DNA of 64,000 bases from NCBI GenBank assembly GCA_028715055.1, contig JAQTLE010000003.1, forward strand, positions 248,001-312,000, in the 5' to 3' direction. The position numbers were made by a program, and so were the translations under genes. Positions 54,063-56,633 of the stretch are shown piece after piece. The stretch comes from Sulfurovaceae bacterium. Lineage in GTDB: Bacteria > Campylobacterota > Campylobacteria > Campylobacterales > Sulfurovaceae. Positions within the stretch are counted from its first letter, which is position 1. Each line of letters opens with the position of its first letter. Under the pieces are notes generated by a model. It worked only from the letters and a program-made list of their open reading frames with translations, made no database searches and had not been told where the DNA came from.

Positions 54063-54083
54063 AAAGAGGCTTTTTGCCTCTTT
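54063..54083 (+). terminator. Intrinsic terminator after pseudopilin 1
   Basis: Perfect 8-bp stem AAAGAGGC/GCCTCTTT with a TTTTT loop, followed by GTAATTTCTT. It separates the two pseudopilin genes transcriptionally. Confidence 0.7.
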
Positions 54084-54183: not shown

Positions 54184-54633
54184 ATGAGAAAAGCTTTTAC
54201 TTTAATAGAACTTGTTTTTGTTATTGTTGTCATAGGGATATTAGCATCTATTGCTATACCAAGGTTTGCAGTTACAAGAGACGATGCCAAGATAGTAAGC
54301 GCCAAGGCTACCATAGCATCAGTACGTTCAGCGCTCTCTACTGAGCGACAATTGCGTACGCTTAGAGGAGATTTTACTGCTATCACATCTATTGATAATG
54401 ATGGAGTTGCGGACACCGCTATATCTACATTTAGTGCAGATAAAGATGGCAATAGTAATTCTGTTTTAGAATCAATAATTCCTGTGTGTGCCAATAATAG
54501 TGACAATGGTTGTTGGCAAGATTCACTACATTATCGTATGCCAGGAAGCGGGACTGTCGTAACATTTACATTGACAAACGGACAATTTAATTGTGATGTT
54601 ACAGAGGCTAATTGCAAAAAATTAACACGATAA
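54184..54633 (+). CDS. Type IV pilin-like/pseudopilin 2
   Basis: 149 residues. Prepilin signal RKA-FTLIELVFVIVVIGILASIAIPRF with the mature Glu5, then a helix and a globular part with cysteines in PVCANNSDNGCW and FNCDVTEANC, likely disulfides. It is related to the preceding gene but not a close copy. AGGAG is 5 nt upstream of the ATG. priA follows after 68 nt. Confidence 0.9.
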   Translation: MRKAFTLIELVFVIVVIGILASIAIPRFAVTRDDAKIVSAKATIASVRSALSTERQLRTLRGDFTAITSIDNDGVADTAISTFSADKDGNSNSVLESIIPVCANNSDNGCWQDSLHYRMPGSGTVVTFTLTNGQFNCDVTEANCKKLTR

Positions 54634-54701
54634 TAACATTCTACGCTAAAAAATATTTTGTGGTATAATAAAATATCTATATTCAATCAAAAGAGTCAAT
54701 C

Positions 54702-56633
54702 ATTTATTACTATCACATCGCATTATTAAATTCATCGGCCCCAATATTTACATATCATTCTGCTGAGTCATTGGAGATCGGCTCTATAGTGCAAGTACCC
54801 GTAAAAAGCACAATCAAGGATGCTGTTGTATTAATAAAAACATCAAAGCCGGAGTTTGAGACATTGGCCGTGTCTGATATTACTAACAAGTATTACAATA
54901 CTATGCAATTAGAGCTTGCCAGATTTATATCATCATATTATTTTTCATCAATATCTGAAGCATTGGCTTTGTTTATACCGTTTGAAAATGTGGAATGGAG
55001 AAAGGAGAAGGAAGAAGAAGACAATATGTCATTCCTGCGAAGGCAGGAATCCATTATGGATCCCCGTGTCAAGCACGAGGATGACGGAAAATTGAAGGCC
55101 GAGGACGATATGGTACTACTGCCCACCCTTACCGCCGCCCAACAAAAAGCATTGCAAGAGATTGAAACATACCAAAGAAGTTTACTCTTTGGAGTAACCG
55201 GCGCAGGGAAAACAGAGATATTTATACACCTAATAAACCAGGCTATAACCAATAACCAAAACGTGATAATGCTTATGCCGGAAATTGCCCTTACTCCTCA
55301 GATGCTTGAGCGTCTTAGTAAATATTTTGGCAATAATGTAGTTATCTGGCATTCGAAACTTACTAAAAATCAAAAAGAAAATATCTTGAGCCGTATTGCT
55401 TCAGGCGAAGTGCATATAGTTGCCGGAGCCAGGTCAGCTTTGTTTGTACCGCTCGAAAACATAGGACTGATAATTGTAGATGAAGAGCATGATGATAGCT
55501 ATAAATCAATGACAAGGCCACGTTATCATGCTAGAGATGTAGCAGTATTGATAGGAGAAAAAATAGGAGCAAAAGTTGTATTGGCTTCTGCAACGCCGTC
55601 AGCTTCATCATATCACAAATATCCGATAGTCAGGCTCAAAGAAGCCTATATATCTACAGCCAAAAGCTATAAATTTATAAGCGGAGACAGTGTGAACAGT
55701 GAGTGTATAAAAGCACTCGACAACACAATAAAACAAAGTGAGCAAGCTATAGTATTTCTACCTACGCGCGGTAATTTTAAGTATCTTTATTGCCCGTCGT
55801 GCGGAACAACACACAAATGCCCGTTTTGCTCTGTAGGAATGGCGCTCCATCGTAATCATAAACATCTTAGATGTCATTATTGCGGCTATACAGAGTCGAT
55901 AGCTCAAAGCTGCAGCGAATGCGGATATGCACCTTTGAGCAGTGAACGCATAGGCACAAAAGAGGCGATAGAACTTATAAACGAATCATTGCCCAAGGCA
56001 AGAGTAGTACAATTTGATAAAGACAGCATCACTACACCAAAGAAATTAGGTTTGGCTTTATCGCAATTGGCCAACAAAGAGACAGATATATTAGTAGGCA
56101 CTCAGATGCTAAGCAAGGGTCATGATTACCCGGATATCACATTAAGTATAATCATGGGGCTTGATTACATGCTTGGCTTAGCTGATTATAGAGCCAAAGA
56201 AAGAGCGATCAGTTTATTGTTTCAGATAGCCGGAAGAAGCGGAAGAACTAAAGATGCTTTGATTTATATCCAAAGCTCGCATAGCCATTTCTTTGAACCG
56301 TTTTTGAGTGATTATGAACTGTTTTTGAGAGATGAGCTTGAATTTAGACGCATAGCATCATATCCTCCGTTTGTATCAATGGCTAGAGTGCTTATAGCTC
56401 ATGCTAAGCCTGATGTAGCCGAAAAACAATTGAGCAATACTTTAGAGGCATTAAAAGGCTTTAATAATATCGAGATAATAGGATACGGCAAAGCTCCGGT
56501 CGAAAAGATAGCAAGTCGTTATCGATATCATATCTTGCTTCGTTCAAATAGCAAAAAAGCATTGCTTACTGCTCTTCATGCGATAGCAAAAAGAGGAATA
56601 GAAATAGACATGGACCCGGTGGATTTTTCGTAA
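54702..56633 (+). CDS. priA: Primosomal protein N' (PriA) with in-frame repeat insertion
   Basis: 643 residues if translation starts at ATT 54702, preceded by AAGAG at 54691-54695. The residues that follow (YYYHIALLNSSAPIFTY) match the conserved PriA N-terminus; the first canonical start, TTG 54771, would remove 23 of them. Helicase motifs are GVTGAGKTE, VDEEHDDSYK and GTQMLSKGHDYPD. Eight zinc-site cysteines lie in CPSC, CPFC, CHYC and CSEC. Residues 109-129 are encoded by a family B repeat and lie in the linker before the helicase core. PriA restarts collapsed replication forks. Confidence 0.92.
   Translation: MYYYHIALLNSSAPIFTYHSAESLEIGSIVQVPVKSTIKDAVVLIKTSKPEFETLAVSDITNKYYNTMQLELARFISSYYFSSISEALALFIPFENVEWRKEKEEEDNMSFLRRQESIMDPRVKHEDDGKLKAEDDMVLLPTLTAAQQKALQEIETYQRSLLFGVTGAGKTEIFIHLINQAITNNQNVIMLMPEIALTPQMLERLSKYFGNNVVIWHSKLTKNQKENILSRIASGEVHIVAGARSALFVPLENIGLIIVDEEHDDSYKSMTRPRYHARDVAVLIGEKIGAKVVLASATPSASSYHKYPIVRLKEAYISTAKSYKFISGDSVNSECIKALDNTIKQSEQAIVFLPTRGNFKYLYCPSCGTTHKCPFCSVGMALHRNHKHLRCHYCGYTESIAQSCSECGYAPLSSERIGTKEAIELINESLPKARVVQFDKDSITTPKKLGLALSQLANKETDILVGTQMLSKGHDYPDITLSIIMGLDYMLGLADYRAKERAISLLFQIAGRSGRTKDALIYIQSSHSHFFEPFLSDYELFLRDELEFRRIASYPPFVSMARVLIAHAKPDVAEKQLSNTLEALKGFNNIEIIGYGKAPVEKIASRYRYHILLRSNSKKALLTALHAIAKRGIEIDMDPVDFS
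55028..55087 (+). repeat. Family B double-hairpin repeat inside priA
   Basis: 60 bp: GTCAT-TCCTGCGAAGGCAGGA-ATCCA, joint, TGGAT-CCCCGTGTCAAGCACGAGG-ATGACGG. The length is a multiple of three and no stop is introduced; it is translated as SFLRRQESIMDPR...HEDDG. Sequence on both sides is Glu/Lys-rich linker. Confidence 0.88.

Follow-up and report, generated by a model that had tools for sequence, protein, structure and literature searches.

The window analyzed here, a stretch of 64,000 nucleotides from a 1.76-Mb draft genome (23 contigs) of a Sulfurovaceae bacterium, contains a priA gene with a pseudopilin-like gene on its 5' side and with ispG and dnaB beyond it (Table 1). The product is identified as a PriA helicase by its Pfam domains (DEAD, Helicase_C, Zn_ribbon_PriA, PriA_C and PriA_3primeBD, all over the cut-off) as well as by a structural match of model residues 2-642 to PriA chains; since all of the expected PriA domains are present above the Pfam cut-offs, the gene looks intact. 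A terminator scan yielded a terminator-like site at 54063, between the two pseudopilin-like genes, and none on the forward strand between the second of these genes and priA. Judging by the position of the extended -10 promoter-like element TGGTATAAT, which is overlapped by the in-frame TAA, transcription of priA would start near 54676. The coding region also includes an in-frame part of an interspersed palindromic repeat (SFLRRQESIMDPRVKHEDDG, 55029-55088), located in the linker that joins the DNA-binding and helicase domains of PriA; further partial copies of this repeat are present in the genome (9 matches, this one included), and the same linker in genomes G005 and G009 carries apparently different inserts.

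Table 1. Features at the priA locus (window coordinates).
Feature	Position	Strand	Remarks
Pseudopilin-like gene, 5' neighbor of priA	54184-54633		Named from its translation
TGGTATAAT, extended -10 promoter-like element	54661-54669	+	TATAAT recurs 5' of AUH-started priA in genera g1 and g8
In-frame TAA closing the priA frame 5' of the start	54669-54671	+	11 codons upstream
AAGAG, Shine-Dalgarno-like site	54691-54695	+	Six bases (TCAATC) between AAGAG and ATT
ATT, start codon of priA	54702-54704	+	Relatives; alignment with E. coli PriA 6dcr_A
priA CDS	54702-56633	+	643 codons + stop, counted from ATT
TTG, first canonical in-frame codon (codon 24)	54771-54773	+	Use removes residues 1-23
ispG	56861		Beyond priA; named from its translation
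dnaB	57922		Beyond priA; named from its translation

After the TAA, the priA frame reads NIYIQSKESI-IYYYHIALLNSSAPIF, and codon 24 is the first ATG, GTG or TTG in it; the sole in-frame GTG just 5' of priA (54660) is followed by a stop two codons on. The sequence-only reading had placed the start at the ATT codon, with AAGAG 6 nt before it, and had named TTG 54771 as the first canonical codon, with no ATG, GTG or TTG in between; re-reading of the window found these positions to be exact.

N-terminus of PriA and gene-start controls

An AlphaFold2 model of PriA built from 15 sequences (mean pLDDT 85) places two beta-strands of the DNA-binding domain at residues 2-8 and 16-20 (block pLDDT 94 and 91). 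In VIA-align comparisons with the solved PriA chains 8fak_H, 6dcr_A (E. coli) and 4nl4, the alignment opens at residue 1 or 2 of both partners, and at residue 1 of both for E. coli PriA 6dcr_A; the match to 8fak_H has a Z of 31.0 and an rmsd of 3.7 over 594 aligned residues. A sequence-profile search with the N-terminal domain hit no solved chain at E 0.001; a match came from the fold comparison.

As controls, the downstream genes were read in the same loci, and a canonical start (ATG, GTG or TTG) was found at the expected place in 31 of 31 ispG genes, and no more than two codons away from it in 21 of 21 dnaB genes, the remainder of the 90 loci offered being without that start or duplicates. 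Among 63 genes of the window paired with those of genome G005, priA has the greatest gap between the point where the protein becomes alignable and its first canonical codon (31 codons in the window and 23 in G005), the runner-up being a gene with a gap of 12 codons whose leader runs into ATG. A first cut-off of 5 codons flagged 16 of the 63 gene pairs in both genomes, including priA, because near-identical DNA extends into leaders. Overall, the relatives described below, the predicted fold and the gene-start controls bear out the start proposed from the sequence, and translation of priA would almost certainly begin at ATT 54702. An odd initiator tRNA was also considered and rejected: 22 of the 30 tRNA loci in the same genome were scanned (39 tRNA matches in all), and they include four tRNA-Met(CAT) genes, two of which look like ordinary initiators by eye; none of the tRNAs scanned has the anticodon TAT.

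Start codons of priA in the genus, family and order

A search of 11 genomes of the window's genus (g1) gave a priA match in 9, and the start of the main copy, readable in 8 of them, is ATA in 6, ATT in 1 and ATC in 1, and never ATG (one of the eight, G006, has a run of N further down within priA). Excluded from this count are an additional shorter copy in G001 and a broken one in G009, each with ATA, the main G009 copy, which is truncated at a contig end, and two genomes that gave no N-terminal match. In G001, the 5' part of priA is duplicated upstream of the full gene (L011 and L036, G001:C28:20561-21959), forming an open reading frame of 179 codons; both copies open with ATA, as does the broken copy in G009 (L042, G009:C24). 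The priA leaders of L124 (G088), L041 (G001) and L042 (G009), which belong to species of two nominal genera, are nearly identical, and this sequence similarity suggests either that the priA region was transferred or that one of the genomes is misplaced.

A broader survey read 190 distinct starts of priA in 186 genomes; metagenome assemblies make up most of the named relatives. Within the family, 138 genomes had a match and 120 were counted, the others being G183 (cut by a contig end), G185 and G191 (duplicates of counted sequences), nine unfetched full matches and six partial ones; across the order, 238 genomes had a match (27 of them within the family), and 66 outside the family were read. 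Three contig-end rows were set aside (L006, as well as L186 and L308, both ATA), and L184, L230 and L309 were dropped, having ATA at the place and a canonical codon 5-7 codons upstream. Firm AUH starts (AUU, AUC or AUA) are present in 36 rows from 35 genomes, the window's included (17 ATA, 11 ATC and 8 ATT). Inside the family they comprise all 10 rows of g1, 18 of 24 in the genus g8, 1 of 6 in g4 and 1 of 55 in g3; outside it, they were observed in families f9 (3 of 3), f6 (2 of 4) and f16 (1 of 10). No ATG, GTG or TTG occurs anywhere between the upstream stop and the start in 32 of these 36 rows, and the other four have a TTG upstream, at a distance of 10 (L020), 12 (L023), 21 (L145) or 31-32 codons (L012). 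The priA gene of the window has an AUH codon at the protein start, without a canonical start nearby, and the codon class is kept in relatives.

The alignment check proposed in the sequence-only reading, namely, whether ATG stands at this codon in relatives, yielded ATG in 12 of 124 family rows and in 0 of 10 same-genus rows. Of the six g8 sequences that are not AUH-started, one carries ATG at the place, four carry it two to four codons upstream, and one has TTG a single codon upstream; with ATG at or near the start in five of the 24 sequences of g8 and TTG in one, the AUH trait can be lost. Elsewhere in the family (90 rows outside g1 and g8), TTG or GTG stands exactly at the place in 68 rows and ATG in 11. 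On a weak tree of the N-terminal domain (189 rows, ~96 residues), where AUH labels include the three dropped rows, the AUH state requires at least 16 changes vs. a mean of 35 for shuffled labels, and at least 12 codon changes are needed among 38 AUH rows (shuffled mean 16).

We further compared codons around the start in 26 AUH-started priA genes of g1 and g8. Because these rows were picked for AUH, the fixed AT of codon 1 is there by construction, which does not apply to the protein boundary. At the third base of codon 1, pairwise identity is only 31% (ATC 10, ATA 9, ATT 7). Residues 3, 4, 8, 11-14, 17 and 18 are 85-100% identical and residue 2 is 52% identical, and the downstream priA codons show conserved amino acids with free third bases. 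Codons 5' of the start are 11-33% identical as protein (33% and 17% for the two immediately preceding it), except for the Shine-Dalgarno codon (60%), at whose place GAG is found in 20 of the 26 genes, a clear conserved feature upstream. The absence of ATG is, on its own, weak evidence of selection against it, because a third-base G is rare at four-fold sites of these genes as well (GCG 0, ACG 0 and CCG 2 of 26).

Ribosome-binding sites, promoters and leader hairpins

Duplex energies of Shine-Dalgarno sites, computed with an assumed standard anti-Shine-Dalgarno tail, have medians of -6.7 kcal/mol for AUH rows of g1 and g8 (28 rows) and -4.2 kcal/mol for AUH rows elsewhere (11 rows), these 39 rows including the three dropped ones, vs. 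-1.2 to -2.8 kcal/mol for non-AUH rows (121 rows; AUH stronger, P = 4e-10). The window's own AAGAG is moderate by eye, and it is as a group that the AUH sites are stronger. This difference may partly arise from AUH-started priA standing apart from its upstream gene, whereas elsewhere priA often abuts it. Of the AUH rows, 14 of 18 in g8 and 6 of 10 in g1 have TATAAT within 70 bases, compared with 10 of 85 non-AUH rows in the family's other genera and 4 of 59 in other families; no clear link is seen for AUH rows outside g1 and g8 (1 of 4 and 2 of 7, i.e., 3 of 11). In these two genera, priA seems to have become independent of the pseudopilin genes, with its own promoter and ribosome site and a poor start codon.

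Leader folding was assessed on 65-base leaders with 200 shuffles each, using z <= -2.5 as a threshold, which was reached by 10 of 14 g8 AUH leaders with TATAAT, 1 of 4 g8 AUH leaders without it, and 4 of 10 g1 AUH leaders. Well-folding leaders are found in three non-AUH rows of g8 too (L202 and L231 with ATG, L138 with TTG); among the AUH leaders that fall short of the threshold, L003, L036, L041, L042, L185 and L220 have z values of 0.1 to 1.2. The window's own priA leader has a z of -1.6, and a hairpin there is not clear. Many g8 leaders contain AATCTCCTCAA, which shares bases with the -10 box and is complementary to TTGAGGAGATT at the Shine-Dalgarno site; the hairpin in g8 leaders such as L161, L190 and L156 and in the g1 leaders L005, L012, L018 and L020 pairs the priA Shine-Dalgarno site with a stretch at or near the -10 box, and four g1 genomes have other complementary arms. 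A covariation check was run on 14 leaders picked for showing the hairpin (13 AUH and L202). Out of 154 hairpin cells, 87% pair and 20 do not; the 38 cells that depart from the commonest pair comprise 15 with one side changed and pairing retained, 3 with both sides changed, and the 20 unpaired ones. Compensatory changes in these chosen leaders are not above those in shuffles (264 and 129 of 500 shuffles were as high).

The left arm of the hairpin lies largely at or before the expected transcription start; therefore, RNA started near the promoter would be without most of it, and read-through RNA would have it. A comparable arrangement is the leader of phage T4 gene e, in which a long RNA hides the ribosome site and a near-promoter RNA does not. 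It may serve as a model for the priA hairpin of the relatives, whereas the window's own leader is not clear in this respect. As a lead from sequence, the leader hairpin seen in some relatives could mask the ribosome site when the RNA comes from read-through. A further-reaching proposal, in which several lineages carry a double lock on priA (an AUH start policed by IF3 and a hairpin hiding the Shine-Dalgarno site in read-through pseudopilin RNA, with RNA from a promoter at or inside the hairpin leaving the ribosome site free), appears to us speculative and rather improbable. If it were true, PriA output and, hence, replication restart would follow the state of translation initiation.

Interpretation of the AUH start

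The explanation that we consider likely as a whole combines an AUU start, a kept AUU/AUC/AUA class, poor initiation and a low level of PriA. With the initiator anticodon, AUU, AUC and AUA form pairs at two positions. The ordinary initiator tRNA would presumably read the AUU at 54702 and place formyl-methionine at residue 1. The AUU/AUC/AUA class would be kept by selection in g1 and several related lineages, poor initiation yielding little PriA per mRNA; stronger Shine-Dalgarno pairing may make up for part of the AUH weakness, and a low, capped PriA level would be the selected outcome. The probable brake, by analogy with infC, sigR and ccpN, is proofreading of the codon by IF3. Initiation from non-canonical codons is repressed by this factor (PMC5472188), and in Staphylococcus aureus AUH starts gave ~10% of the AUG output in poor medium, with ccpN reaching up to 30% in rich medium (PMC13009471).

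A conserved non-canonical start that limits a protein is an already known phenomenon. In E. coli, an AUU start limits the product of pcnB (poly(A) polymerase), which is needed in small amounts only; the AUU start is shared with priA, although the gene and the phylum are different. In other bacteria, infC, encoding IF3, has an AUU, AUC or AUA start with poor initiation enforced by IF3 (PMC5472188; PMC13009471), which resembles the AUH start and the proposed IF3 brake of priA here. Streptomyces sigR is similar in having a conserved non-canonical start with the first two bases fixed (of 34 species, 32 have GTC and 2 have GTT), but its start, which is accompanied by a strong Shine-Dalgarno site, is of the GTN class, sets a ratio to an anti-sigma factor and has been demonstrated experimentally (PMC5472188). 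Staphylococcus ccpN (AUA) and cvfC1 (AUU) also have conserved AUH starts, and their Shine-Dalgarno sites are strong; they are other genes, established by Ribo-Ret and reporters (PMC13009471). A non-canonical priA start, its recurrence in an order, and an exchange of ATT, ATC and ATA were not found among the literature matches listed. A term search of a Campylobacter Ribo-seq study (PMC11955535) found neither priA nor terms for non-canonical starts, and a passage search of PMC12122000 and PMC10175261 yielded nothing on PriA copy number or the N-terminal domain.

The infC case differs from priA in that its product is IF3 itself, forming an autoregulatory loop, and infC in priA's group starts with a conserved TTG in 24 of 25 genomes (loci L315-L339; 26 genomes were searched, one had no match, and the 25th of those matched, L333, was missed by the search motif). 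On these grounds, infC-like autoregulation of the AUU type is not favored. The hint of autoregulation in the sequence-only reading went unsupported: nothing here ties PriA to its own translation, and we know of no PriA activity on its own translation initiation.

The chief alternative is relaxed selection, according to which little PriA is needed, any AUN works, and AUU, AUC and AUA reflect neutral drift instead of a kept brake. It is in line with the free variation of the third base of codon 1, which matches the composition of these AT-rich priA genes, with the five g8 sequences that have ATG at or near the priA start, and with the prevalence of TTG and GTG, weak starts as well, in the rest of the family. 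We nevertheless regard it as unlikely, since start codons normally stay at or revert to AUG (AUG-to-AUU switches being 1 of 61,358; PMC5622118), stronger Shine-Dalgarno sites accompany AUH-started priA, and two genera retain the AUH state as the codon itself keeps changing. Selection thus probably maintains the weak AUH start as a brake on priA.

Regulated control atop the weak start, whereby the IF3 level or PriA would alter priA translation with the state of the cell (growth, DNA damage), is compatible with the kept brake and not exclusive of it. It draws on the repression of sigR at GTC by IF3 (PMC5472188), the shift of ccpN AUA efficiency with medium in S. aureus (PMC13009471) and the influence of IF2 isoforms on PriA-dependent restart in E. 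coli (PMC3334882); we find it doubtful, however, as no sensor or binding site was identified at priA here, and infC itself has TTG and not AUU in 24 of the 25 genomes.

A protein starting downstream, at TTG 54771 or later, with the conserved stretch acting as a leader with another role, is very improbable. Its basis is that TTG 54771 is the first canonical codon in the priA frame, and it is largely refuted by codons 2-18 evolving as protein (amino acids fixed, third bases varying), by the varying position of the next canonical codon downstream, which is 5 to 148 codons away across the 36 AUH rows (the GTG of L025 being five codons downstream), and by the modelled fold, in which residues 2-20 form two strands of the DNA-binding domain. 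The sequence-only reading, which had named such a protein as a refuting possibility, had held that a start at 54771 would cost 23 conserved residues; these include both predicted strands. The sequencing error that it had also named as a refuting possibility has a practically negligible likelihood: although this is a single draft genome, the same codon class recurs as ATT, ATC and ATA at the same place in 35 genomes (the window's included), and an error would leave ATG in close relatives, where there is none. A pseudogene is ruled out by the relatives and the intact PriA domains.

Few bacterial genes started by AUU, AUC or AUA are known, and gene finders restricted to ATG, GTG and TTG miss them; here, such a gene finder would cut 23 residues from PriA. 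The occurrence of ATA, ATT, ATC, TTG, GTG and ATG at one position provides a natural series in which to examine how initiation fidelity may set the level of a DNA-repair protein. Retention of the AUH start through two genera and further lineages suggests that a low supply of PriA has been selected for.
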